Positions 606-21,084 of a stretch of 64,000 nt of DNA are shown here, one piece after another. The translations under genes were made by a program, and so were the position numbers. The DNA comes from Proteinivorax tanatarense. GTDB taxonomy: Bacteria > Bacillota > Proteinivoracia > Proteinivoracales > Proteinivoracaceae. Positions within the stretch are counted from its first letter, which is position 1. Every line of letters starts with the position of its first letter. The notes beneath the pieces are model-generated. The model searched no databases. It saw only the letters and a program-made list of their open reading frames with translations, and was not told the DNA's origin. The stretch is from positions 1,488,001 through 1,552,000 of the forward strand of contig NZ_CP158367.1 in NCBI RefSeq assembly GCF_040267685.1. Direction: 5' to 3'.

Positions 606-1628
606 ATGGAAAAGAAAAAAGCGTTGGATATGGCTTTGCACCAAATTGAAAGGCAGTTTGGCAAAGGATCAGTTATGAAGTTAGGGGAAAATACTAACTT
701 CTCAGTGTCTACAGTGCCTTCAGGTTGCCTTGACTTAGATATAGCCTTAGGAACAGGGGGTTTCCCAAGGGGGAGAATCATTGAAATTTATGGACCAGAA
801 TCTTCAGGTAAAACTACTGTAGCTTTGCATGCAATAGCAGAAGCCCAAAAGAATGGTGGTACGGCAGCTTTTATTGACGCCGAGCATGCTTTAGATCCGG
901 TCTATGCAAAAGCTTTAGGTGTTAATATTGACGAGTTATATGTGTCTCAACCAGATACAGGGGAACAAGCATTGGAAATTGCAGAAGCTTTGGTGCGAAG
1001 TGGGGCTATTGATATTGTAGTAGTAGATTCTGTTGCTGCATTAGTTCCAAAAGCAGAAATTGAAGGGGAGATGGGTGATTCCCACGTAGGCCTTCAAGCT
1101 AGATTGATGAGTCAAGCACTGCGAAAACTATCAGGAGCTATTAGCAAATCAAAAACGACAGCTATTTTTATTAACCAATTACGTGAAAAAGTAGGAGTTA
1201 TGTTTGGGAACCCAGAAACTACTACTGGAGGGAGAGCCCTTAAATTTTACTCTTCGGTAAGGTTAGATGTAAGAAGAATTGAAACTTTAAAGCAAGGTCA
1301 AGATATGGTAGGAAATAGGACAAGAGTAAAGATTGTAAAAAATAAATTAGCACCACCTTTTAAAAAGGCTGAGTTTGATATAATGTATGGTGAGGGAATT
1401 TCTAAAGAGGGATGCATCTTAGATTTAGGAGCGGGGCTTGATATTGTAAATAAAAGTGGTGCATGGTATTCTTTTGATAAAGAACGTTTAGGTCAAGGAA
1501 GGGAGAATGCCAAGCAGTATTTAAAGGATAATCCTGATATTCTCCAAACCATAGAACAAAAAATAAGAAAACACTATAACCTTTCGGTTGATGCCCAAGA
1601 GGAAGCAGAGACTGAACAGGCAGAGTAA
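606..1628 (+). CDS. recA: Recombinase RecA
   Basis: RecA forms ATP-dependent filaments on single-stranded DNA, catalyses strand exchange and triggers LexA self-cleavage. The 340-residue length is typical. Walker A GPESSGKT lies at residues 63-70, and the family blocks IDAEHALDP and the L2-loop region [22 protein letters not shown] are present. The C-terminus is acidic (EEAETEQAE), as in most RecA proteins. The ATG at 606 follows a strong GGGGAGGAG site. A LexA box upstream indicates damage induction. An intrinsic terminator separates it from recX. Confidence 0.98.
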
Positions 1629-1710: not shown

Positions 1711-2145
1711 ATGAAAAAAGCAATAGGAAAAGCTTTGCGATATTTAAGTTATAGGGCGAGAACAGAACTAGAGCTAAAAAACTATTTAGACAAGAAAGGT
1801 GTTCCTCAACGGGATATAGAAGAAATAATAAGTGAACTTAAGAATTACGGATATATAAACGATGATGAATATGCTACTCAGTTTATTAACTATCAAGCTT
1901 TTACCAAGTTAAAGGGACCTCAAAAAATAAAGTTTGAACTTACTAAAAGAGGAATTAGCAGAGAAACTATGGACAGTGTCTTTGAATCATTGGAAATTGA
2001 CTTTTTAGAAATAGCGAAAAAAGTTACTGTTAAAAAAAAATCTACAAAAACAGCCCAACAGCTATATGGACATCTTATTCGTAGAGGTTTTTACCATAAT
2101 CACGCTATGTATGCAATAAAAGCTTTAGAGAAGGAAGAGGGATAA
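1711..2145 (+). CDS. recX: Regulatory protein RecX
   Basis: RecX modulates RecA filaments, usually by capping or inhibiting them. At 144 residues the protein is short but shows the helical three-repeat pattern of the family, including LSYRARTELELKNYL near residue 13, and LIRRGF near the end. It begins at ATG 1711 behind AGGAGGT. It follows recA after a terminator, the common recA-recX arrangement, and its stop lies one base before the next ATG, suggesting coupling to the downstream nuclease operon. Confidence 0.9.
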   Translation: MKKAIGKALRYLSYRARTELELKNYLDKKGVPQRDIEEIISELKNYGYINDDEYATQFINYQAFTKLKGPQKIKFELTKRGISRETMDSVFESLEIDFLEIAKKVTVKKKSTKTAQQLYGHLIRRGFYHNHAMYAIKALEKEEG

Positions 2146-2146
2146 T

Positions 2147-3127
2147 ATGAAGATTGTTTATATTACCGATACTCACTTTAGGGGCGGGGGCCCTAGAAGT
2201 AGAACTGACGATTTTGTTAATACTTGTTATGATAAGTTAAACGAAGTTGTAAACTATTGTAATGAAAATAAGGTAGATTTATTGCTACATGGAGGGGACT
2301 TCTTTGATAGACCTGACATTTCGTTAGCAGTATTAGGGGAGATAGTTGGGATACTAAAAGGATGCAATTGTCCGATTAAGGGTATAGCAGGTAATCACGA
2401 TATCTATGGACATAACCCTAAAACTTTACCTAGAACCATGCTAGGACTTTTAGATAAACTTGGAATTATAAAATTAATTGATGAAAATGGCGTGCTTTAT
2501 GCAGCTAATGGCGTGAAACTTCAGTTAACAGGAAAAAACTATGTACATGACTATGAGCAGAAAGAAAGTTATATAGCAAAAAAGAAATTAGAGACTGATT
2601 TTAGTATCCACTTAGTTCATGGTATGTTGCTACCTAAAAAAAATATCCCAATTGATAAAATGACTTTGATTGAGACTATTGGTAGCACAGAAGCTGATAT
2701 TACCTTGTCTGGACACTATCATCAAGGTTTTGGATCTGTAGAATTTGGAGGAAAACTATTTATCAATCCTGGTGCATTATTACGGGTAGATAATAGTTAT
2801 TCAGAATTGAATAGAAAACCTCAAATACTACAAGTAACTTTAACTAAAAATAAAGAACCTAAAGTTGAATTTATCCCCTTAAAAACAGCTAAACGTGGTG
2901 ATCTTGTTTTAGATAGAACCAAACTAGAAGAAAAAGTTATTCAACAAAACAAGCTGGATAATTTTTTAACAAACATTACCGATATAACTTCAAACCAATA
3001 CATAACTGCTGAAGAAATAGTTACATCAATAGCTAATAATGAAAACATATCTGTAGATGTGAAAGAAAAGGCGTTATCTATAATATCAAACATGCAAGAG
3101 AGTTTTAATAAAGATGAAATTGACTAG
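2147..3127 (+). CDS. SbcD/Mre11-like DNA repair phosphoesterase
   Basis: This 326-residue protein has the full set of Mre11/SbcD-type metal motifs: D8-x-H10 (TDTHF), GGDFFD at 49-54, GNHD at 82-85, LVHG and SGHYHQ. Mre11/SbcD nucleases act with an SMC-like ATPase to process DNA ends and hairpins. That partner appears to be encoded by the next genes. It starts one base after recX, so recX and this gene are probably co-translated. It is shorter than typical SbcD and closer in size to phage-type repair exonucleases. The exact activity is inferred from family and context. Confidence 0.85.
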   Translation: MKIVYITDTHFRGGGPRSRTDDFVNTCYDKLNEVVNYCNENKVDLLLHGGDFFDRPDISLAVLGEIVGILKGCNCPIKGIAGNHDIYGHNPKTLPRTMLGLLDKLGIIKLIDENGVLYAANGVKLQLTGKNYVHDYEQKESYIAKKKLETDFSIHLVHGMLLPKKNIPIDKMTLIETIGSTEADITLSGHYHQGFGSVEFGGKLFINPGALLRVDNSYSELNRKPQILQVTLTKNKEPKVEFIPLKTAKRGDLVLDRTKLEEKVIQQNKLDNFLTNITDITSNQYITAEEIVTSIANNENISVDVKEKALSIISNMQESFNKDEID

Positions 3128-3146
3128 CTAAAGGAGGTGGTCAACG

Positions 3147-4595
3147 ATGGCAGCCCTAGAATCAATACATCTAATTAATTTTCAGTCTCATACAAACAGT
3201 GTTCTTAAATTTCATAAAGGAGTTAATGTAATAACAGGACCTTCAGATCAAGGTAAGTCTTCAATCATCAGAGCTCTCAGGTGGGTTCTTTATAACCAGC
3301 CAAAAGGTGGAGATATCATTCACTATGGTCAGTCACATTGTTCGGTGACAGTAACCCTTGATGATGGGACAAGTGTAACAAGAGAGAGGAGAAGGAATAG
3401 TAACAGGTATGTAATTGAAAAAGATGGTGAAAGAAATGAGTATTCCAGCGTCAGTAGTGAAATTTTAAAAATTGTCCAAGGGGTATTAAAAATAACGCCT
3501 GTTTTTTTGGATAAAGATCAGAAACCTGAAATAAATATAGCCCGACAGTTAGAGCCCCCCTTTTTGTTAAGTGGCACAGGAAGTCTTAGGGCAAAAGCCA
3601 TAGGTACTATTGTGGGAGTACACTTTATTGATGCAGCCTCTAGAAGTGTATCGGGAAACATAAAAGAGTTAAGCTCTAAACTAAACTATAAAGATGAAGA
3701 ATTAAAAAACTTAAACGAGCAATTAACTGCTTACCAAGAGTTGAACAATCAAAAGATAAAGACTGAAAAAGCCAATAATGCTTATCTAAAAGTGGAAAAT
3801 AAAATAACTAAATATATTAACTTAAAAATTAAAAGAGAAAAATTATATAAAATTAATGATGAAATTAACGCTCTTTCGTTAACTTTAAAACAGACTAAAA
3901 ATATAAAGCCAGCTTTAGAGCTTATAGAAGAAGTAAAATCATTACAAAGTAGGTATATATTGTTAAAAGATATAAGTAGAAAGCTAAACTATACTAATCA
4001 AGAAATCGACAAACTTAATAGTTTACTCCAAAACACAGAATTTTTAAATGACGGAATAAAGAAAATTGAAAGTGCTGACTTAAAACTAGAGAAATTGACG
4101 AGTATAATCAAATCCAAATCCAAGTTAAATAACATCAATAAAAACTTAAAAGCTTGCAATATTGTTTTATCAAATACCAGTAATTTACCTGCTAGTATAG
4201 AAAAAATTAGCGTTATACAAACATTAAATGAAAAATTAACTAACTATAAAAGGTACCACAACCAATTATCATCTATTAACAAAGATATTAGCCTTAACAT
4301 CAATAATAGAATTGATAAAGGCTTAGAAAGCCAACTTATCCACCGGATAAACATAATTGAAGACAAAATTAAAAAATTAGATAAGTTAAAAGATTGTATG
4401 AAGAACATAAGAACTATTGAAACTAGAAGAAAAAATGGTGCTAAATATATTTCTGAGCTTAATCTAAAGTATAATTCGTTAATAAATAAACTTAATAGTA
4501 AAATTGAAAACCTTAATAAGTGCCCTATATGTGAGCAAGAAATACCCCAATCTCACAAGCATGTGTTGTTAGATAGATGGAAGGGAGAGATGTAA
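3147..4595 (+). CDS. Rad50/SbcC-like ATPase, N-terminal half ending in a zinc hook
   Basis: The 482-residue protein opens like Rad50: LINFQSH, then Walker A GPSDQGKSS at 31-39. A long Lys/Asn/Glu-rich coiled coil fills about residues 165-450. Near the C-terminus is CPIC (C459, C462), the zinc-hook signature of Rad50, and the protein ends 20 residues later. The descending coil, ABC signature and Walker B are therefore missing here and are found in the separate gene at 4854. RBS AAAGGAGGTGG precedes ATG 3147. It probably forms a split complex with the neighbouring nuclease. Confidence 0.85.
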   Translation: MAALESIHLINFQSHTNSVLKFHKGVNVITGPSDQGKSSIIRALRWVLYNQPKGGDIIHYGQSHCSVTVTLDDGTSVTRERRRNSNRYVIEKDGERNEYSSVSSEILKIVQGVLKITPVFLDKDQKPEINIARQLEPPFLLSGTGSLRAKAIGTIVGVHFIDAASRSVSGNIKELSSKLNYKDEELKNLNEQLTAYQELNNQKIKTEKANNAYLKVENKITKYINLKIKREKLYKINDEINALSLTLKQTKNIKPALELIEEVKSLQSRYILLKDISRKLNYTNQEIDKLNSLLQNTEFLNDGIKKIESADLKLEKLTSIIKSKSKLNNINKNLKACNIVLSNTSNLPASIEKISVIQTLNEKLTNYKRYHNQLSSINKDISLNINNRIDKGLESQLIHRINIIEDKIKKLDKLKDCMKNIRTIETRRKNGAKYISELNLKYNSLINKLNSKIENLNKCPICEQEIPQSHKHVLLDRWKGEM

Positions 4596-4598
4596 AAT

Positions 4599-4841
4599 AT
4601 GTCAATGACAAACGAAATAAATACTTTAAAAAAAGAGTTAGAAAAGCTAAGAGCAGATAGATATAAAGCCGAAGCTAAAATGGATTCTTTAAAACATCAA
4701 AAAGAGGATTTAGTTAGTGAAATAAAAAAAATGGGGGTAGACCCTGAGGATTTAGATAAAGAAATAATAAAGCTTGAGAAAGAAATAAATGATTTGATTG
4801 AGGAAGTTAAAGAAATGATTCCTAACGAATTACTTAAGTAG
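4599..4841 (+). CDS. Small coiled-coil protein between the two Rad50 halves
   Basis: The 80-residue product is almost entirely predicted coiled coil, with heptad-like Leu and charged residues (INTLKKELEKLRADRYKAEA). It has no catalytic motif. It has its own site (GGAAGGGAGA) and starts 3 bases after the upstream stop, so it is an independent gene and not a frameshifted remnant. Lying between the N- and C-terminal Rad50-like halves, it may supply or brace the descending coil. That role is inference. Confidence 0.7.
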   Translation: MSMTNEINTLKKELEKLRADRYKAEAKMDSLKHQKEDLVSEIKKMGVDPEDLDKEIIKLEKEINDLIEEVKEMIPNELLK

Positions 4842-4853
4842 GGGGAATTGCTT

Positions 4854-5531
4854 ATGGAGTCTAAATTAACATCGCTAAAAAATCAACTTGATATTGCTAA
4901 CACAAAACTTGCCATGATAGAAGGGCAGAGGAATCAACTGTTAAAACATAAAGGTTTAGTTGAAACTGAAATAAAACAATTAAAAGGTGAGTTAGATATT
5001 TATTACCAAGTAAGGGCTTTACTCAATAAGTCATCGGACCACGGGCGAAATCAAGCCAAGCGACAAATAGAAATACTTGTTACTAATGCTTTACAGTTTA
5101 TATTTGATGAAACTTATAGTTTTAAAATAGAATTTAAAGAAGTGAGAAATAGAGTGGAAGCTCAATTTCTAGTGTGTTCAGAGTACAATGGTAAAAAAAT
5201 AAAAACCAACCCTGAAGAAGCCAGAGGTGGTGGAATTGTAGATATAGTTTCATTAGCACTAAGGATTGCTATTTTACAAACTTATAGACCGACCTTGGAG
5301 GGGCCTTTAGTGTTAGATGAACCGGCTAAGCATGTAAGTGAAGAATATGTCAATAAAGTTGTAGAGTTTTTAAATCATGTGAGTAGTGGATTTGACAGAC
5401 AGATTATACTAATTACCCATAACCCTTACTTGATGGAAGCATCGGATAAATCTTTTCAAGTAGAGTTAAGAAATGGGATAACCACTGTACGGGAAGGTAA
5501 CTTACTTGACACTATCTGTAAAAAACTATAA
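4854..5531 (+). CDS. Rad50/SbcC-like ATPase, C-terminal half
   Basis: The start is set at ATG 4854, because AGGGGGA at 4840-4846 fits it and would sit too close to the TTG at 4848. The 225-residue protein has a short N-terminal coiled coil, then the ABC signature region ARGGGIVDIVSLALRIA, Walker B GPLVLDEPAKHV and the switch block ILITHNP. These are the C-terminal half of an SMC/Rad50 ATP-binding head. Walker A is absent and lies in the gene at 3147, so a working ATPase needs both products. The operon ends here. Confidence 0.85.
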   Translation: MESKLTSLKNQLDIANTKLAMIEGQRNQLLKHKGLVETEIKQLKGELDIYYQVRALLNKSSDHGRNQAKRQIEILVTNALQFIFDETYSFKIEFKEVRNRVEAQFLVCSEYNGKKIKTNPEEARGGGIVDIVSLALRIAILQTYRPTLEGPLVLDEPAKHVSEEYVNKVVEFLNHVSSGFDRQIILITHNPYLMEASDKSFQVELRNGITTVREGNLLDTICKKL

Positions 5532-5650: not shown

Positions 5651-7201
5651 GTGAACATAATTTCAACAACATTAATTTGGATAATCATTCCCTTGGCTTT
5701 GTTGATTGGCTTAGGGTTAGGTTATTTGATACGTAAAGCTATTGCAGAAGCAAAGATTGCATCTGCTGAGCAGGAAGCTAAAAATATTTTATCTGATGCA
5801 AAAAGAGAGGCAGAAGGCAAAAGGCGTGAAATGATACTTGAAGCAAAAGAGGAAATATTAAAGCTTCGTAGTGAATTTGAGAAAGAATCAAAAGAACGCA
5901 GACAAGAGGTTCAGCGGCTTGAAAAAAGAGTTATGCAAAAAGAAGAATCTCTAGACAGAAAAACAGACAGTATTGAAAAAAGAGAAGAGAATTTAGCAAA
6001 CCGAGAAAATCAAATCAAAAAACAAGAAGAACAAGTGAAAAATGCTCAAAAAGAGCAAGTTAAAGAACTGGAAAGAATATCTTCTTTAACAACTGATGAA
6101 GCGAGAGAGCAACTATTATCCGATGTTGAAAAAGAGTTACAACATGAAATGGCTGTTATGGTTAAAGAGGCTGAGAATCAAGCAAAGCAAGACGCAGAAA
6201 AGAAAGCTAATCGCATTATATCTACTGCTATACAGCGCTGTGCTGCAGATCATGTAGCAGAAAGTACAGTCTCAGTAGTACCTCTTCCCAACGACGAAAT
6301 GAAAGGTCGAATAATAGGGCGTGAAGGTAGGAATATTAGGGCTTTAGAGACTTTAACTGGTATTGATCTTATTATTGATGATACTCCAGAAGCTGTGATT
6401 TTATCAGGGTTTGACCCAGTAAGAAGAGAAATTGCCAGAGTTGCATTAGAAAAGCTTATATTAGATGGAAGAATTCATCCAGGGCGAATCGAAGAAATGG
6501 TTAATAAAGCCAAAAAAGAAGTGGACAACCAGATCCGCGAAGAAGGTGAACAAGCTACTTTTGAAACCGGTGTACATGGCATCCATCCTGAGCTTGTAAA
6601 ATTATTAGGAAGACTAAAGTTTAGAACAAGCTATGGACAAAATATCCTAAAGCACTCTTTAGAGGTGGCTCATCTGGCAGGAATTATGGCTGCTGAATTA
6701 AATGCAGATATCAAACTAGCTAAACGCGGAGGCTTACTACATGACATAGGAAAAGCTGTCGACCATGAGATGGAAGGTCCACACGTAGCTATTGGAGCAG
6801 AATTAGCTAAAAAGTATAAAGAGTCTCGAGAGGTTATACATGCCATCGCTGCTCATCATGGAGATGTAGAAGCACAGACAGTAGAAGCCGTTATTGTTCA
6901 AGCAGCGGATGCCATTTCAGCTGCAAGACCGGGGGCTCGAAGAGAAACTTTAGAAAACTATATTAAGCGTTTAGAAAACCTTGAAAATATAGCTGATTCT
7001 TTTGAAGGGGTAGAAAAGAGTTTTGCAATACAAGCTGGTAGGGAAGTAAGAATAATGGTACAACCTGACCAAATTGACGACGCAATGGCTACTTCTATTG
7101 CTAGAGATATAACCAAAAGAATAGAAGACGAACTGGAATATCCCGGTCAAATAAAGGTTATTTTAATAAGAGAAACAAGAGTTGTAGAATACGCAAAATA
7201 A
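5651..7201 (+). CDS. rny: Ribonuclease Y
   Basis: RNase Y is the membrane-bound endoribonuclease that starts mRNA decay in many Firmicutes. The 516-residue protein has an N-terminal membrane helix (about 5-25), a long charged coiled coil to about 190, a KH domain ([15 protein letters not shown]) and an HD domain with [12 protein letters not shown]. The start is uncertain: GTG 5651 is the first canonical codon, but AAGGGGGTGA overlaps it and is ideally spaced for an ATT at 5660. A hairpin terminator follows. Confidence 0.95.
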
Positions 7202-7226
7202 AGGGAGAAATCCCTTTATTTTTTTA
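7199..7226 (+). terminator. Terminator after rny
   Basis: TAAAGGGA (7199-7206) and TCCCTTTA (7211-7218) form a stem with a GAAA loop, followed by eight T residues. The stem begins in the rny stop codon. Confidence 0.85.
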
Positions 7227-7248
7227 CACAAAATATGGAGGTATTATA

Positions 7249-8007
7249 ATGAAAATAATTTTTATTGGTGATATTGTAGGTAAACCTGGTCGTAAAATAC
7301 TAAAAAATAAACTTCCAAGCTTAATTGAAAAGTATAGCCCTGACCTTATAATAGCTAATGGTGAAAATGCTGCTGGAGGTAAAGGCTTGAACCAAAGAGT
7401 TGCTGATGAACTATTTGAGTCTGGTATTGATATTTTAACAATGGGAAACCATGTATGGGATAAAAAGGAGATCTTTAATTTTATACAAGGTGACAAAAGA
7501 ATAGTAAGACCAGCTAACTATCCTAAGGGGACCCCTGGCAGTGGTTTTACAAAGGTTGAAGTTAATGGGAAAATAATATTAATACTTAACCTTTCTGGTA
7601 TAGTTTATATGCCACCATTAGATTGTCCGTTTAAAGTTATTGACGAGATGTTAAATGTAGATGATTATGATTATAGCTTGTTAGATTTTCATGGAGAAGC
7701 CACTTCAGAAAAGATTGCCATGGGATGGTACTTAAATGGAAAAATTGATGCAGTAGTAGGAACTCACACTCATGTGCAAACATCCGACTACCGTAGACTT
7801 GATAAAGGGACATTATACATAACCGATGTTGGAATGACCGGCCCATATAACGGAGTTTTGGGTGTTAAAAAAGAAGATGTTATAAAAAAATTTGTCACTA
7901 AAATGCCTACGCGGTTTAATATAGAAACTGATGGACCAAAACAATTAAATGCCGTTTATTTAGACTTAAATTCTGAAAAGATTTATCCTATAAAAGAAAT
8001 AGAATAG
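7249..8007 (+). CDS. ymdB: YmdB-type 2',3'-cyclic-nucleotide phosphodiesterase
   Basis: The 252-residue length and blocks match YmdB: FIGDIVGKPGR at the start, ANGENAAGGKG, MGNHVWD, and VGTHTHVQTSD. YmdB proteins are metallophosphoesterases that hydrolyse cyclic nucleotides and in Bacillus affect biofilm and sporulation decisions. Placement directly after rny is the conserved Firmicutes arrangement. It starts at ATG 7249 behind GGAGG. Confidence 0.93.
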   Translation: MKIIFIGDIVGKPGRKILKNKLPSLIEKYSPDLIIANGENAAGGKGLNQRVADELFESGIDILTMGNHVWDKKEIFNFIQGDKRIVRPANYPKGTPGSGFTKVEVNGKIILILNLSGIVYMPPLDCPFKVIDEMLNVDDYDYSLLDFHGEATSEKIAMGWYLNGKIDAVVGTHTHVQTSDYRRLDKGTLYITDVGMTGPYNGVLGVKKEDVIKKFVTKMPTRFNIETDGPKQLNAVYLDLNSEKIYPIKEIE

Positions 8008-8575: not shown

Positions 8576-9520
8576 ATGAGTAAAAAGATTCCCATTATTG
8601 ATGGACATTGTGACACCGCCTTACTGCTCGAGGAAGAAAATTATGACTTTTTTGGCAAAAACCAGCTGGGGCATATAGATTTTAATCGCTTAAAAGAGGC
8701 TGATGTTAGGTTACAGTTTTTTGCTGTTTTTGTAAATCCTCAAATTAATCAGTTTAATATTTTGGAGAAAGGTTTAGATAAATTAAACCAAATTCTTAAA
8801 GTTATAGAAGATGATGAAGATATTTTTTTGGTTAAAAATAAAGCAGATTTAAACAAATTGCAAAAAGGCAAATTGGGGATATTAATAAGTGTAGAAGGTG
8901 GAGATGTTATAGGAAAAAATATTCAAATCCTGGATATTTTTTATAGACTTGGAATGCGTTCTTTGACTCTTACATGGAGTAACAACAATTTCATATCCGA
9001 TGGAATTTCTGATAGTAGAAACGGCGGTTTGACTAGCTTTGGTAAAGAAGTTATTCAAGAGATGCATGAGAAAAATATTATTTTAGATGTTTCCCATTTA
9101 TCTGTTGCAGGTTTTTGGGATGTTGTAGATAACTATAAAAAACCTATAATAGCTTCTCATTCAAACTGTAAAACGGTTTTTAGCCACAAACGTAGTTTAG
9201 ATGATAAGCAAATAAAGGCGATTGCAAACTCCAATGGACTTATAGGTATAAATTTTGCGCCACATCAACTTTGGAAAGAAGGGAATGCAGATTTAGATAT
9301 TATCATAAGGCATATGAAACATCTAAAAAATCTAATTGGGGTCAAGCATATAGCTTTAGGAAGTGATTTTGATGGAGTGTCAAAGTTGCCAAAGGGAATA
9401 AAAGATGTAACATCTTTCCAAAGGTTATTTTCATCAATGGAAAAAAACGGTTTTTCTGAAGTTGAAGTTGAACACATAGCTTACAATAACTATTACAATT
9501 TTTTAAATACTAACCTGTAG
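8576..9520 (+). CDS. Membrane dipeptidase (peptidase M19) family
   Basis: The M19 family contains zinc dipeptidases with an amidohydrolase fold. The 314-residue sequence shows the metal ligands in order: DGHCDT near residue 10, ISVEGGD, LDVSHLS, ASHSNC and LGSDFDG. No signal peptide is seen, so it is probably cytoplasmic, as are bacterial relatives that cleave dipeptides. ATG 8576 has AAGAGGAGG upstream. The PHP gene follows by 16 bases, so the two are probably one operon. The substrate is unknown. Confidence 0.88.
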   Translation: MSKKIPIIDGHCDTALLLEEENYDFFGKNQLGHIDFNRLKEADVRLQFFAVFVNPQINQFNILEKGLDKLNQILKVIEDDEDIFLVKNKADLNKLQKGKLGILISVEGGDVIGKNIQILDIFYRLGMRSLTLTWSNNNFISDGISDSRNGGLTSFGKEVIQEMHEKNIILDVSHLSVAGFWDVVDNYKKPIIASHSNCKTVFSHKRSLDDKQIKAIANSNGLIGINFAPHQLWKEGNADLDIIIRHMKHLKNLIGVKHIALGSDFDGVSKLPKGIKDVTSFQRLFSSMEKNGFSEVEVEHIAYNNYYNFLNTNL

Positions 9521-9536
9521 ATAATGGAGGATATAT

Positions 9537-10367
9537 ATGGATCTGCATATTCATTCAACTTGTTCTGATGGTTCTTTAACGCCAGAAGAGATTGTAAAAA
9601 AAGCTAGTGAAAAAAAATTAAAAATCATATCTATTACTGACCACGATGAAATTTCTGCTTATAAGTTAGCAAAACCAAAGGCTGATAAGTTAGATATAAA
9701 ACTAATACCAGGAGTAGAAATAAACACAGAAGTCAACAAAAAAGAGGTACATATCTTAGGGTACTTTATAGACGTAAATAATAAGTACTTAATTGAAGGG
9801 TTAGAGAAGTTAAGAGAACAAAGAGAGTTAAGGGTCAAAAAGATAAGTGAAAAATTAACTCATCTGGGTTATCCATTAACTTATGATGAAGTCTGTCAGG
9901 TTTCCCAAGGGAAGTCAATAGGAAGGGTACATGTAGCAGAAGCAATGATAAAAAAGGGATATGTTTCAAGTATAAGGGAAGCATTTAATAGCTTTTTAGC
10001 GACTAGCGAGAAAGCTTATGTGCCTAGGTATAAGCTTTCTCCAAATCAAGCTATAAAACTAATACATAAAGCTGGAGGGGTAGCAGTATTAGCACATCCT
10101 GTACAAATTCAAGATGACCAATTAGTTACGGAGTTGACAAAGTTTGTAGATGGAATTGAAGTGTATCATAGTGATCATAGTTCAGAAGACATAAAAAAAT
10201 ACTTGTCATATGCTGAAAAAAGTAGTTTAATAGTATCAGGAGGCTCAGACTGTCATGGAAGTTCAAAAGGTATGCCGTTTCTGATGGGTACTGTGCTGAT
10301 ACCTGAATCAGTTAAAATACCATGGAAATTGGGAAAGGAGGAGCTGTTATCACCAAGTTTAGAATAG
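9537..10367 (+). CDS. PHP-domain phosphoesterase
   Basis: The 276-residue PHP protein has metal ligands DLHIHSTCSDG (residues 2-12), ITDHDE, GVEINTE, LAHPVQ and GGSDCHG. This pattern matches stand-alone PHP phosphatases and 5'-3' exonucleases of the YciV/RNase AM type, which act on short nucleic acids or nucleoside bisphosphates. Which of these applies is not decided by sequence. Its last 46 bases overlap the annotated start of the GntR regulator, and AAGGAGGAG at 10335-10343 lies inside its coding end. Confidence 0.88.
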   Translation: MDLHIHSTCSDGSLTPEEIVKKASEKKLKIISITDHDEISAYKLAKPKADKLDIKLIPGVEINTEVNKKEVHILGYFIDVNNKYLIEGLEKLREQRELRVKKISEKLTHLGYPLTYDEVCQVSQGKSIGRVHVAEAMIKKGYVSSIREAFNSFLATSEKAYVPRYKLSPNQAIKLIHKAGGVAVLAHPVQIQDDQLVTELTKFVDGIEVYHSDHSSEDIKKYLSYAEKSSLIVSGGSDCHGSSKGMPFLMGTVLIPESVKIPWKLGKEELLSPSLE

Positions 10368-16645: not shown

Positions 16646-19192
16646 GTGGCTAAATCAAGTATTACACCTATGATTCAACAATATATAGATATAAAAAACG
16701 AGCATAAAGACTGCTTACTTTTATTTAGGGTAGGGGATTTTTACGAACTATTCTTTGAGGATGCTAAAATTGGTGCTAAAGCTTTGGAAATTGCCCTCAC
16801 ATCCAGAGACGGTGAAGACGGGATACCTCTTGCAGGCATACCTTGTCATGCTCTTGATACTTATCTAGCTAAGCTGTTAAGACAAGGTTATAAGGTTGCT
16901 ATATGTGACCAAGTTGAAGACCCTAAGCAGGCTAAAGGTATTGTAAAAAGGGAAGTAGTAAAAATAGTAACTCCCGGTACAATAATCGATGAAAACTTAC
17001 TTGATGCTAAAGACAACAACTTTATGTGTGCTTTAGCTTGCTATGGAAACAAAGCTGGATTGGCATTTGTAGATAATTCAACTGGCCAGTTTTTTTATAC
17101 AGAAGGGCGGTTAAGTTTTGAAAGCATAAATAGAATTATTTCTAAATATCTTCCTTCTGAATGTATAGTTAGTTCTGAGTTTCCACTTTTATCAAAGCTA
17201 CGTCGACTCACCTTAAATATTTCAATCCATGAAGTTAATGCAGAAGTCACTTCAGATTTTAATCCACTACTTGAACAAATTATTAACCATAAAGCTGGTC
17301 TGGAAGCTGTCAAATTACTAATCTGTTACTTAGCAGAGACTCAAAAAAACTCTTTAGCCCATCTTAATAAAATAGACTATATAAACCTAAATCAGTATAT
17401 GAATTTAGATTATACATCTATAAGGAACTTAGAGCTTATAACTACAATTAAAGAAAATAGAAAAAAAGGTTCCCTTCTTTCTGTTATCGATAAGACCGAA
17501 AGTGCTATGGGCGGTAGGAAGCTAAAACAATGGCTTTTAAGCCCTCTATTGAATATTGAAGAAATAAACCATCGTTTAAATATGGTTGATTCGTTATTAG
17601 AAGATGGGTTGCTTTTAAAAAACTTAAAAGACTGCATTGGTCAAATTTATGACTTAGAACGATTGTCAACTAAAGTGGCATACCAAACAGTAAACCCCAA
17701 GGACTTAGTGGCTTTAAAAAATTCACTACAAAAAATACCTCAAATAAAAGAACTACTTATAAAGTCAAACACAAAAAGTTTAGTTAGTTTAGCTAACAGA
17801 TTATGCAGCTTAGATAGATTGGCTAACATTATAGAACAAGGGATTGTTTCTTCGCCACCCACTACGATAAAAGACGGAGGAGTTATTAAACCAGGATTTA
17901 ACAAAGAATTAGATGATTTAATTTACACAGCAAATAATGGCAGAAAATTATTAGCAGAATATGAGGAAGAAGAAAAAACGAAAACTGGCATTAAATCTCT
18001 AAAAGTGCGGTATAATAAAGTTTTTGGATACTATATTGAAGTAACCAAAAGCAACTTAGATCTTGTTCCAGAAAGCTATATCAGAAAACAAACCTTAACT
18101 AATGCAGAAAGATATTATACCGAAAACTTAAAAAGATATGAGGAACTGATATTAGGAGCATCCGAAAAAATAATCCAGTTAGAATATGAACTTTTTTGTG
18201 AGATAAGAAGCTCTGTATTAGAATGTATTGAGGAAATACAAAACAATAGTAATGTTTTAGGAGAACTAGATTGTTTGTGCTCCTTCGCTACCTTGTCTAT
18301 AGATAATAACTACTGCAAGCCTAGGTTAAGTAATGACGATGAGATTTCCATAGTTAACGGAAGGCATCCAGTAATAGAAGAGACTATTGGGAGAAAAAAT
18401 TTCATATCTAACAACACTTTATTAGATTGTCAAGATAATCAGGTATTAGTAATCACAGGTCCCAATATGGCTGGCAAATCAACATATATGAGACAAGTTG
18501 CACTAATCACCCTTCTTGCACAAATTGGTTGTTACGTACCTGCTGAAGAAGCAAAGATTGGTATTGTAGACAGAATTTTTACTAGGGTAGGTGCAAGTGA
18601 TGACTTATCTTCTGGGCAAAGTACTTTTATGGTAGAAATGACAGAGTTGGCAAATATACTAAAAAATGCTACTTCCAAAAGTTTAATTTTATTAGATGAA
18701 GTAGGGCGAGGAACAAGCACTTTTGATGGCATGAGTATAGCACAAAGTGCCATAGAGTATTTACTAGAAAAAGATAAAATTGGTGCTAAAACTTTATTTG
18801 CTACCCACTATCATCAGTTAACTTCTTTGGAGGACAAGTTTAACGGGGTTAAAAACTATTCGATTGCCGTTCAAGAGAAAAATGATTCTATTACTTTTTT
18901 ACACTCTATTAAAAAAGGGGGAAGTGATAGAAGCTACGGTATACAAGTGGCCAAACTTGCAGGGGTTCCCTCTCCAGTAATTCAACGTTCCAATGATATT
19001 TTAAAAGTCATAGAAGAAGACTCTGTTACTAAAAAACAGGTAAGCACTACACAGCAAGATATATTTGATTTGATTGATAATAAAAATCAAGAGTTTATAA
19101 ATGAAATTAAAGATATTAATGTTGATGAAATTACACCTATGGAAGCGCTAATTATCTTACAGAAGTTACAAAAAAAGGTTAAAAATTGTTAA
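16646..19192 (+). CDS. mutS: DNA mismatch repair protein MutS
   Basis: MutS recognises mismatches and recruits MutL. The start is GTG 16646, because AGGAGGT (16630-16636) fits it; an in-frame ATG at 16625 lies upstream of that site. The 848 residues have the mismatch-wedge motif GDFYELFFEDA near residue 30, Walker A GPNMAGKST, LLDEVGRGTST and ATHYHQL. Length and order are normal for MutS1. mutL follows 14 bases later, so they are cotranscribed. Confidence 0.98.
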   Translation: MAKSSITPMIQQYIDIKNEHKDCLLLFRVGDFYELFFEDAKIGAKALEIALTSRDGEDGIPLAGIPCHALDTYLAKLLRQGYKVAICDQVEDPKQAKGIVKREVVKIVTPGTIIDENLLDAKDNNFMCALACYGNKAGLAFVDNSTGQFFYTEGRLSFESINRIISKYLPSECIVSSEFPLLSKLRRLTLNISIHEVNAEVTSDFNPLLEQIINHKAGLEAVKLLICYLAETQKNSLAHLNKIDYINLNQYMNLDYTSIRNLELITTIKENRKKGSLLSVIDKTESAMGGRKLKQWLLSPLLNIEEINHRLNMVDSLLEDGLLLKNLKDCIGQIYDLERLSTKVAYQTVNPKDLVALKNSLQKIPQIKELLIKSNTKSLVSLANRLCSLDRLANIIEQGIVSSPPTTIKDGGVIKPGFNKELDDLIYTANNGRKLLAEYEEEEKTKTGIKSLKVRYNKVFGYYIEVTKSNLDLVPESYIRKQTLTNAERYYTENLKRYEELILGASEKIIQLEYELFCEIRSSVLECIEEIQNNSNVLGELDCLCSFATLSIDNNYCKPRLSNDDEISIVNGRHPVIEETIGRKNFISNNTLLDCQDNQVLVITGPNMAGKSTYMRQVALITLLAQIGCYVPAEEAKIGIVDRIFTRVGASDDLSSGQSTFMVEMTELANILKNATSKSLILLDEVGRGTSTFDGMSIAQSAIEYLLEKDKIGAKTLFATHYHQLTSLEDKFNGVKNYSIAVQEKNDSITFLHSIKKGGSDRSYGIQVAKLAGVPSPVIQRSNDILKVIEEDSVTKKQVSTTQQDIFDLIDNKNQEFINEIKDINVDEITPMEALIILQKLQKKVKNC

Positions 19193-19206
19193 ATGGAGTT
19201 GGTCTG

Positions 19207-21084
19207 ATGAAAAATATCAATATACTCCCTTCAAGTGTAGCTAATAAAATTGCTGCAGGGGAAGTGGTTGAGCGCCCTGCCTCCATCGTAAAAGAACTTG
19301 TGGAAAACTCCATTGATGGACAAAGCAGTTTTATTGAAGTTTATGTTGAAAATGGAGGAAAAGATAAAATTGAGGTAGTGGATAATGGCATAGGCATAAC
19401 GAGCAAAGAAATCTCTTTAGCTTTTAAGCGTCATGCCACAAGTAAAATACAAAGTGAAAATGATTTAGATGGCATAAACTCTTTAGGTTTTAGAGGTGAA
19501 GCACTTCCTTCAATAGCTGCTGTAAGTAAGGTTGAGGTTCTAAGTAAAACAGCTTATGAAGATACAGGTGTTAAATTTAAGTTAGAAGGTGGAATCAATG
19601 AAGAGATTTTGCCTGCTCCTGCAAATGAAGGCACTAGATTTTTAGTTAATGACCTTTTTTTTAATACCCCAGCTAGAAAAAAATTTCTTAAAACAACGGC
19701 AACAGAACTGGGATATATAACAGATATTATAGGGAGATTTGTGCTATCTAATCCCGATATTTCTTTTAAACTCTATCATAATGATAGGAGACTTTTATCA
19801 TCAAGTGGAAATGGTAGCTTAAAGCAAGCTATTGCTGATGTATTAGGGGCAGCCACAGCCGAAAATACTTTAAAAGTAAACAGTAAGTCCGAAAAAATAG
19901 ATATTCAAGGCTATGTTGTAAAACCATCTATAACTAAAAGCAATAGAAGTGGTCAGTTTATTTTTATTAATAATAGAATTATAAAAAGCAAATTGCTAAC
20001 TAAAGCTATAGAAGATGGATACAAAACATTATTACCTCAGCATAGGTATCCAATTGCAGTTTTGAAATTATGGCTTCCTCCTAACATAATAGACGTTAAT
20101 GTTCATCCCTCAAAACAAGAAGTTAAATTTGATAATGAACGAACAATTTATCAATGTTTAAAAGCTGCAATTGATTCAGCCTTAATGGACAAACCTCTAG
20201 TGACAGAGTATAAATACTCCAAACTAAATAAAAGTGATAAGGGTAGCTTAACTAATAGTAACTCTTCAAAACCCACCTTTTCCCATCGGAATAATAATCG
20301 TTTGACAACCGAAAATAATGTGACGGAACAGTTATCTTATTTAGAAAAGTTAACTAAAAATAATTTTTCCAAAGATAAAGAATTTCATACTGACAGTTCT
20401 ACTGTACATGAAGGCGTAAATAATGATTTATCAACAAAGTCTGAAAAGTTACCAACAAAGCCTATATCTAAAAGTAAAATACAAACCCCTGAAATTATAA
20501 ATCCTTTTTTTACTTCGTTGCAAATATTGGGGCAGTTTAGCCAAACATATATTATATGCAAAGATACAGACAATATATATTTAATAGATCAACATGCTGC
20601 TCAAGAAAAAATATATTATGAAAAAGCTATTAGTCAATTAGGAAAACAAGTTTCCATTCAAACTGTAATACCAGAAACTATAAAATTAAATGGTGCACAA
20701 ATAAATATTATCGAAGAAAATAACTTAACTTTGAAAAAGCTTGGATTTGATATAGAAGTAATGGATGGTAATAACATTATGATAAGAGGGTTACCTTTTT
20801 TCGTTAACAAAACAGTGAGTATACAATTAATGCTAGATTCTTTGGAGGAAATATTTATTAATGATGAACTAAGTAGCTTAAAAAAATTTAAAGATGCCGT
20901 TTTAGCGCTAATCTCATGCAAAGGAGCTATTAAAGCTAACCATAAGCTGACCCACGAAGAAATGCAAAGTCTTTTAAATCAATTAAGCTATACAAGTAAC
21001 CCTTATAGTTGCCCCCATGGTAGACCAACGGTGGTATCTTTGGATAAAAAAAGTATAGAAAAGATGTTCAAACGGGTGAAATAA
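19207..21084 (+). CDS. mutL: DNA mismatch repair protein MutL, with endonuclease motif
   Basis: The start is ATG 19207 after GGAG, giving 625 residues. The N-terminal GHKL ATPase shows IAAGEVVERPASIVKELVENS, DNGIG and GFRGEAL. A variable Ser/Lys/Asn-rich linker occupies about 335-440. The C-terminal domain has DQHAAQEKIYYE, which fits the DQHA(x)2E(x)4E metal site of nicking MutL proteins, and CPHGRP. MutL should therefore nick DNA, as expected in bacteria lacking MutH. Confidence 0.97.
   Translation: MKNINILPSSVANKIAAGEVVERPASIVKELVENSIDGQSSFIEVYVENGGKDKIEVVDNGIGITSKEISLAFKRHATSKIQSENDLDGINSLGFRGEALPSIAAVSKVEVLSKTAYEDTGVKFKLEGGINEEILPAPANEGTRFLVNDLFFNTPARKKFLKTTATELGYITDIIGRFVLSNPDISFKLYHNDRRLLSSSGNGSLKQAIADVLGAATAENTLKVNSKSEKIDIQGYVVKPSITKSNRSGQFIFINNRIIKSKLLTKAIEDGYKTLLPQHRYPIAVLKLWLPPNIIDVNVHPSKQEVKFDNERTIYQCLKAAIDSALMDKPLVTEYKYSKLNKSDKGSLTNSNSSKPTFSHRNNNRLTTENNVTEQLSYLEKLTKNNFSKDKEFHTDSSTVHEGVNNDLSTKSEKLPTKPISKSKIQTPEIINPFFTSLQILGQFSQTYIICKDTDNIYLIDQHAAQEKIYYEKAISQLGKQVSIQTVIPETIKLNGAQINIIEENNLTLKKLGFDIEVMDGNNIMIRGLPFFVNKTVSIQLMLDSLEEIFINDELSSLKKFKDAVLALISCKGAIKANHKLTHEEMQSLLNQLSYTSNPYSCPHGRPTVVSLDKKSIEKMFKRVK

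Follow-up and report, generated by a model that had tools for sequence, protein, structure and literature searches.

A probable Mre11-Rad50-type machine with its ATPase divided among three genes next to recA in Proteinivorax tanatarense and other Bacillota

In the genome of Proteinivorax tanatarense, a stretch of 64,000 nucleotides (contig NZ_CP158367.1, positions 1,488,001 to 1,552,000; hereafter the window) carries four consecutive genes between recA-recX and the ribonuclease Y gene rny, which we call M, N, K, and C. An earlier note, made from the sequence alone, had described them as an Mre11-like nuclease accompanied by a Rad50-like ATPase in separate genes, and sequence, relatives, and predicted structure agree with that description. 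The features of the four genes, followed by their neighbors, are listed here by window position.

2147-3127, forward strand: M, Mre11/SbcD-like metallophosphoesterase of 326 amino acids (Pfam Metallophos, 2.9e-15; PHROG SbcD-like, 3.4e-13)
3147-4595, forward strand: N, N-terminal half of a Rad50-like ATPase with rod and C-terminal zinc hook, 482 amino acids (Pfam AAA_23, 5.9e-14; phrog_16465, 1.2e-63; predicted composite head)
3237-3260, forward strand: Walker A GPSDQGKS, N residues 31-38 (sequence)
3639-4520, forward strand: rod of N, spanning roughly residues 165-458 and made of repeats of about 47 residues (length classes, self-similarity, predicted helix breaks, module profile)
4521-4532, forward strand: CPIC zinc-hook motif, N residues 459-462, 23 residues before the end of N (sequence, profile)
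4599-4841, forward strand: K, 80 amino acids, predicted helical hairpin (phrog_18563, 4.9e-8; helices 488-528 and 533-557 of the N-K-C model)
4734-4751, forward strand: turn G-V-D-P-E-D of K (P49 in 105/105 K rows)
4854-5531, forward strand: C, C-terminal half of a Rad50-like ATPase, 225 amino acids (phrog_15167, 8.4e-62; profile match to Rad50 C-half chains)
5223-5234, forward strand: R-G-G-G, a degenerate form of the ABC signature, at C residues 124-127 (aligned by HMMER with 3qkr_B and 1ii8_B)
5304-5321, forward strand: end of Walker B, PLVLDE, with D155 and E156 (sequence; both residues in 108/108 C rows)
606-1628, forward strand: recA (Pfam RecA, 2.1e-146)
1711-2145, forward strand: recX (Pfam RecX_HTH1, 4.9e-16)
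5651-7201, forward strand: rny (Pfam RNase_Y_N, 1.1e-68)

Walker A and the zinc hook reside together in N, and the 80-residue gene K separates the two halves, both as the earlier note had it. Of the two motifs it had placed in the other protein, Walker B (LVLDE) is indeed located in C, together with the H-loop, whereas the ABC signature is degenerate. Neither a CxxC nor a P-loop pattern occurs in M, K, or C of the window. The set follows recA-recX, one base separating the recX stop from the start of M, and rny lies downstream of C. A ribosome site of its own had been claimed for each gene; putative sites read from the sequence precede N (aaggaggtgg, 3131-3140) and K (gggag, about 4583-4587), but the purine run before C is weaker (ggggga beside the K stop). 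An alternative start of C is a TTG at 4848. In the window, N, K, and C lie in a common frame with TAA and TAG stops between them, so that a frameshift cannot explain the breaks, in agreement with the earlier note.

A profile scan with one genome per species identified 287 relatives, the best 80 of which were kept for counts of gene order. M-N-K-C occur in this order in 67 of these 80, together with recA in 63, and recA and rny both occur in 62; 13 of the 80 possess C without M, N, or K nearby. The stable set linked to recA that the earlier note had pointed out is therefore borne out, although it had rated the split as too young and too narrowly spread. In four of the 67 ordered loci (L071, L089, L113, and L119) the frame of M or N is broken, and these were kept as found, and recX was sought by a single-sequence profile, whose failure to detect it in many loci does not show absence. 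Relatives of C share 75% identity within the genus and 55% within the family, and strong matches extend to more families of the phylum; among the named hosts are Halalkalibacterium halodurans, Shouchella clausii, Alkalihalophilus pseudofirmus, Caloramator, and Thermoactinomycetaceae. In scans of the phylum, N is matched in 67 of 398 genomes (E up to 1e-20), including a weak relative in G205 and three arm-less forms, part of these 67 loci having been fetched, and C in 34 of 199 genomes (E up to 1e-10). The same split is found in other Bacillota, and also in phages and on plasmids. Close relatives do not encode single-chain orthologs, since loci of the same genus (L022) and the same family (L023) are equally split. 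Among 64 relatives, each of the nine possible frame relations of N, K, and C occurs, and only 3 relatives have the three genes in one frame; as the relations vary freely, read-through is not conserved. Two candidates for single-chain exceptions from the scan of 398 genomes were rejected: the 719-aa open frame of G438 is N extended in frame into M, with K and C separate, and the 999-aa open frame of G205 belongs to a weak relative (976-aa ORF) without CxxC.

The 13 loci with C alone belong to Acetivibrio, Pseudobacteroides, and uncultured Clostridia, and C adjoins rny in 10 of them. In 12 of these 13 genomes, N is encoded elsewhere (E below 1e-117), the exception being a 1.6-Mb assembly (G070). 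M, N, and K are adjacent in all 11 loci fetched from these 12 genomes, two of them beside recA and recX, and in G069 the C locus and the N locus lie on the same 54-kb contig, separated by about 21 kb according to their listed ranges. Both halves having been kept after their separation, these genomes provide strong evidence that N and C act in trans. In the Pfam domain SMC_N, the match of N is confined to the front part and that of C to the back part.

When N, K, and C are read as one chain, the predicted model has a mean pLDDT of 77.3 and a pTM of 0.52, and the ten-residue blocks of its head parts mostly reach pLDDT values of 80-96. The model aligns to Rad50/SMC heads from its first residues, contributed by N, to its last residues, contributed by C. 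The combined head matches 6qj1 with Z 29.7 (rmsd 2.9 over 380 residues), 3av0_B with Z 28.2 (rmsd 5.3 over 354), and 3qku with Z 27.5 (rmsd 6.0 over 342); the 50 head matches listed range from Z 25.1 to 30.4, with a large rmsd in some. Profile matches to crystal chains, which are independent of the read-through model, point in the same direction. The C profile matches the B chains of the two-chain Rad50 crystals 1ii8, 3qkr, 1f2t, and 1us8 (1e-11 for 3qkr_B and 2.6e-11 for 1ii8_B), and the N profile, over residues 3-44, matches the A chains of the same four. An SMC/Rad50-type head with Walker A, Q-loop, Walker B, and H-loop is thus present, distributed over two chains.

Conservation was counted after dropping rows of unusual length (11 of 116 for M, 13 of 114 for N, 1 of 106 for K, and 8 of 116 for C, the latter being fused). 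Eight positions of M (D8, H10, D51, N83, H84, H158, H190, and H192), which we take to be the metal ligands, are each conserved in 104-105 of 105 rows, and M therefore qualifies as an Mre11 metallophosphoesterase with intact ligand positions. G31, G36, and K37 of Walker A are found in 101/101 rows of N, and the Q-loop of N and the H-loop of C in nearly all rows counted. Cys-Pro-x-Cys is present in 100/101 N rows; the exception, L170, is an arm-less fusion without CxxC, whose match to the first two hook columns of the alignment is due to chance. In the signature region of C, R-G-G-G-[VI] aligns over the L-S-G-G-E of Rad50, and C does not display the LSGG[E/Q] of SbcCD and Mre11-Rad50. The signature Ser is replaced by Gly (G125) in 108/108 rows, R124 being present in 103/108, and because of this replacement ATP-driven engagement of the heads may differ from that in Rad50. 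K is under purifying selection (pN 0.149 and pS 0.807 against the same-genus locus L022), with a constraint that matches that of M and C.

The rod is built of modules. In 92 sets of N, K, and C, the distance from rod start to hook falls into classes of 246-255 (14 sets), 291-305 (74), 341-346 (3), and 438 residues (1), and the steps between class means are 46-48 residues or double this value. Rod self-similarity peaks at a lag of 47 (z 2.9 among lags), with the second-highest value at 94, and the rod predicted alone shows breaks near residues 251, 298, 345, and 391. The modules appear to have a hydrophobic spacing like that of a two-stranded coil, and several, as we read them, share a T-x-x-[LV]-x-x-[AW]-E-like junction. 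The chains that might provide the returning strand do not follow this variation: mean K length is 81-87 residues and the C coil 46-50 in every rod-length class, rod and K length are not correlated (Spearman 0.07, p 0.51), and the correlation of rod length with K plus the tail behind the hook is negative (Spearman -0.40, p 8.7e-5), the opposite of compensation. In the window, an ascending rod of about 294 residues faces a returning strand of at most 23+80+47, about 150 residues, so that half of the returning strand is missing. In the one canonical SbcC used as control (L121; hook at 526, LSGGE at 954), the same offsets give about 361 residues out and 350 back. How the coil closes, a question raised by the earlier note, is thus a real one, and it becomes sharper with a returning half that is too short, which had escaped its author.

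With respect to the hook, the CPxC motif is present and the N profile aligns to the solved Rad50 pieces 1l8d and 6zff, the Pfam match to Rad50_zn_hook (0.018) being under the family cut-off. The isolated rod model has four PDB matches with Z of 2 or more, all reaching into the hook end, the best one being the hook 1l8d (Z 5.1); Foldseek returned no match for the rod at E up to 0.001, which does not show a new fold. A CPxC hook is present in 103 of the 114 loci with N, representing 102 distinct N sequences (L027 and L087 have identical N), and all of these 103 have K; eight others encode N and C in one chain, and three have a frame-broken N with K. A hook-bearing N joined to C in a single chain occurs in none of the 103, and no locus with two K genes is found among 106. 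Judged by these sequences, K is a dedicated component of the arm, co-inherited with rod and hook.

The eight fused loci (L034 6652-8754, L164-L166, L168-L170, and L173) all lack hook, rod, and K. They come from a scan of 60 genomes of one class, in which 21 genomes matched and 20 loci were read. Four of them encode M-N-C chains of 684-783 amino acids, and the other four N-C ORFs of 373-524 amino acids beside M, the longest of which includes an in-frame stretch overlapping M. In a tree of 58 M sequences, obtained by a short search with two very distant outgroup rows and not resolved at its deep forks, the eight cluster together amid hook-bearing loci (SH-aLRT 97). Arm loss is therefore most simply explained as one derived event, in which a single clade would have lost rod, hook, and K and re-fused N with C. 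Two other loci encode an M of 263 and 264 amino acids (L180 3901-4692 and L181 4439-5233) without about 60 C-terminal residues, and N, K, and C have no match in the 9-10 kb read around them; this M is possibly a nuclease without its ATPase-binding end.

Mobile elements carry further arrangements. Bacillus phage vB_BboS-125 (L036) possesses the set with an AP2-domain gene (7164-7736) between N and K, probably a homing-type insertion, and with M after C; its M gene (9004-9984, 326 amino acids) is not annotated as a CDS in the record. The set is also carried by plasmids of Bacillus velezensis and Alkaliphilus, and on Geobacillus and Paenibacillus plasmids (L039 and L040) M and N form one chain of 802 and 841 amino acids, followed by K and C. 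A 485-kb uncultured phage encodes N (hook CPVC), M, K, and C in this order within 8.3 kb. Microcystis phage Mvi-JY20 (L186) encodes side by side N, with CSQC close to the end of the chain, M, a 94-aa ORF (4595-4879), and C, and the K profile does not match the 94-aa ORF. Microbacterium phage Magritte has an N of 350 amino acids without CxxC, with N and C far apart, and a scan of viral contigs with the window C alone gave one weak locus (L021). Tunturiibacter phage Tunturi_5 (PP885688.1) encodes a weak C-like stretch (19062-19655) and a weak M-like one (124499-125380), about 100 kb apart. Locus L190 (G177) combines a short-rod N, M, a 91-aa helical-looking ORF (2818-3093), and the start of a C-like ORF (3059-3244) at the contig end.

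A search for SbcC with TIGR00618 (E up to 1e-20) was positive in 78 of 199 genomes, namely in 1 of the 34 that bear the split set (G119) versus 77 of the other 165 (Fisher p 1.9e-7, uncorrected for kinship); the C and SbcC scans of 199 genomes are taken as the same draw, based on sample size and genome handles. The genome of the window has no full SbcC match over the TIGR00618 cut-off, which is strict, being exceeded in only 1 of 14 control genomes. M scores 26.6 bits with the SbcD family TIGR00619, below its cut-off of 77.65, and among the matches listed none of the window proteins reaches a curated NCBIfam cut-off. Two more pairs of a phosphoesterase and an SMC-like ATPase are encoded in the same genome, of 372+799 (L150 2607-6114) and 407+983 amino acids (L151 2803-6910). 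As both of these ATPases lack CxxC, the split set is the only hook-bearing pair of the three seen. N matches AAA_27 with 28.6 bits over residues 4-98 (cut-off 22) and AAA_23 with more, 53.6 bits; the 407+983-aa pair fits AAA_27 better (58.1). In AAA_27-type pairs, called YhaO-YhaN-like, the ATPase is a single chain, which N is not. The 799-aa ATPase shows weak N-like stretches.

Two other observations concern the surroundings. Directly after recA, an inverted repeat with a T-rich end was seen in the window sequence (1634-1678), which the consensus scan did not list and which suggests that recX-M-N-K-C might form a separate transcript. Elsewhere in the genome (L152 1088-4035 and 6078-9025), an ABC-transporter-like cluster of three genes is present as a tandem duplicate, each copy with very similar ORFs of 325, 431, and 224 amino acids.

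We consider it probable, at roughly 0.78, that M, N, K, and C form one DNA-end-processing machine of the Mre11-Rad50 (SbcCD) type, whose ATPase assembles non-covalently from separate chains. Conservation, co-inheritance, motifs, and the near-exclusion of detectable SbcC are the observed basis, the composite N+C head is a prediction of the model, and from these we infer complex formation, nuclease activity, a role in repair, and the site and copy number of K. N would supply the Walker A lobe, the rod, and the zinc hook, and C the Walker B lobe with a short coil. The two lobes would fold into one head, and two heads with an M dimer would constitute the nuclease headpiece, M2(N.C)2, with ATP bound where the N lobe of one head meets the C lobe of its partner, as in Rad50. 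The hooks of N would join two arms through zinc, and K, a small helical hairpin, might pack on the rod or near the hook, stabilizing the arm and providing part of the returning strand. As expected of partners, M forms one chain with N on two plasmids and with N-C in four genomes. The system would replace SbcCD in these genomes and, given the placement next to recA and the near-exclusion of SbcC, probably works on broken or hairpin DNA ends ahead of RecA-dependent repair.

Several points weigh against this proposal. The structural model joins the chains by read-through, which favors their assembly, and its pTM is 0.52. With Gly at the position of the signature Ser, ATP-driven closure of the heads may be weaker or different. 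The genomes compared for SbcC are not independent, 21 families having the split set, 47 SbcC, and 3 both; the search scored three candidates per genome and was positive, at its E-limit, in only 9 of 14 control genomes, so that "no SbcC" means none detected. The two additional phosphoesterase-ATPase pairs reside in the very genome of the window. Finally, L190 (CPLC hook) and the Microcystis phage, both outside the 103 loci, have a small ORF in the place of K which the K profile does not match.

Other explanations of the set as a whole fare less well. That the split is a recent gene break or a sequencing error, or that one chain arises by read-through or frameshifting, would be in line with the common frame and the single stops of the window, yet the same split in 67 of the best 80 relatives and in phages and plasmids, the nine frame combinations with 3 of 64 in frame, and the 13 loci with C away from its partners leave this idea a practically negligible probability. 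N and C might instead belong to two different machines and be chance neighbors, with K unrelated, as the separate C of Acetivibrio-type genomes and the distant N and C of phage Magritte could suggest; since N covers only the front of SMC_N and C only its back, the nucleotide motif of each is missing from the other, 12 of the 13 C-only genomes have retained N, and N and C are fused in eight loci, we regard this as very improbable. The occurrence in phages and plasmids, as well as PADLOC matches of N, such as that to Lamassu LmuB (5.3e-17, best stretch residues 4-99), and of C to mad3 (3.6e-11), would fit a device mainly for defense or phage recombination rather than for general end processing. 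However, these matches are partial and would suit any SMC/Rad50-like head, recA and rny are neighbors in 62 of the best 80 relatives, and detectable SbcC is nearly excluded, so that a primarily defensive role seems rather improbable.

For the closure of the arm, one K that pairs with the rod a single time does not easily account for the data, because half of the strand is missing and N changes by modules without any change in its partners; both facts fit either pairing of N with N in the distal half or several copies of K. In the former case, the rods of two N chains would pair distally, as in rod-shaped Rad50 dimers, with K and the C coil covering the proximal half. The returning strand of about half the ascending one, single-module indels of N without changes in K or C, and the two-stranded-coil-like spacing of the rod profile speak for this, as does a weak match of the hook half of the rod model to 5gox, titled as a rod-shaped Rad50 dimer (Z 4.1, rmsd 21.6), whereas the four PDB matches of the rod model, all reaching the hook end, show no pairing mode; we see this as a serious possibility, short of even odds. 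More tentative is a scaffold arm, in which the modules of N would be accompanied by several free copies of K, about one per module, as the returning strand, with module number setting arm length and one clade having shed arm, hook, and K and re-fused its heads. It is unlikely that the N rod folds back on itself, K merely capping it: predicted helix breaks spaced about 47 residues would suit such folding, but single-module indels (about 5, 6, or 7 modules) would flip the hook-bearing end, and the negative Foldseek search is weak evidence against it as well.

Compared with known systems, our proposed machine resembles SbcCD (TIGR00618 and TIGR00619) in combining a phosphoesterase with an SMC-type ATPase bearing a CPxC hook, and the near-exclusive distribution suggests the same job. 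In contrast to SbcC, a single chain with near-equal coil halves in the one control, it has three chains, a short return, and Gly for Ser, and hence is not a single-chain Rad50/SbcC with an antiparallel intramolecular coil; the set is classed with Mre11-Rad50 as a variant, not as SbcCD proper. Archaeal and eukaryotic Mre11-Rad50 share head fold, Walker motifs, and hook by profile and fold matches to solved Rad50 structures, but Rad50 is single-chain there; we know of no K counterpart in them, no search for one having been made. The two-chain Rad50 crystals (1ii8, 1f2t, and 3qkr) likewise form one head from separate N and C lobes, although their chains of 144-203 residues are too short for a full rod and hook and no K is present. 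The matches of N, K, and C in PHROG are to three different phage families, 16465 (labeled "exonuclease"), 18563 (of unknown function), and 15167 (labeled "ATPase"), respectively, with no stated link among them, and Lamassu LmuB is matched by N over part of its length. Mre11/Rad50 fusions on plasmids and phages, two of them, from Anaerostipes and phage 0305phi8-36, without one P-loop segment, have been reported (Yoshida et al., 2011; PMC3175470). These join M to a Rad50 part as in L039 and L040; the parts of the paper available to us describe no separate C gene, while K and C follow the fusions of L039 and L040, and a separate C gene might explain the two fusions lacking a P-loop segment.

In the openly licensed literature, judged from partial listings and the starts of abstracts, no description of a naturally split Rad50 was found. 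As far as these sources reach, the parts are of known kind, and the novelty lies in a conserved Rad50 made of three chains, whose rod is modular, which has K as a dedicated component, and from which arm-less forms descend. N and C would be the natural counterpart of the two-chain laboratory construct of Rad50 made for crystals, and three unlinked phage protein families gain a likely function. Rad50 arms have been thought to need one chain running out to the hook and back, and the split set seemingly does without it. If the scaffold arrangement is true, the arm could assemble, open, or be remodeled with every covalent chain left intact. An arm whose length changes by modules, and that was lost in one lineage, makes two long-standing questions directly testable, namely the purpose of arm and hook, and how signal or strain travels along the coil between hook and head.

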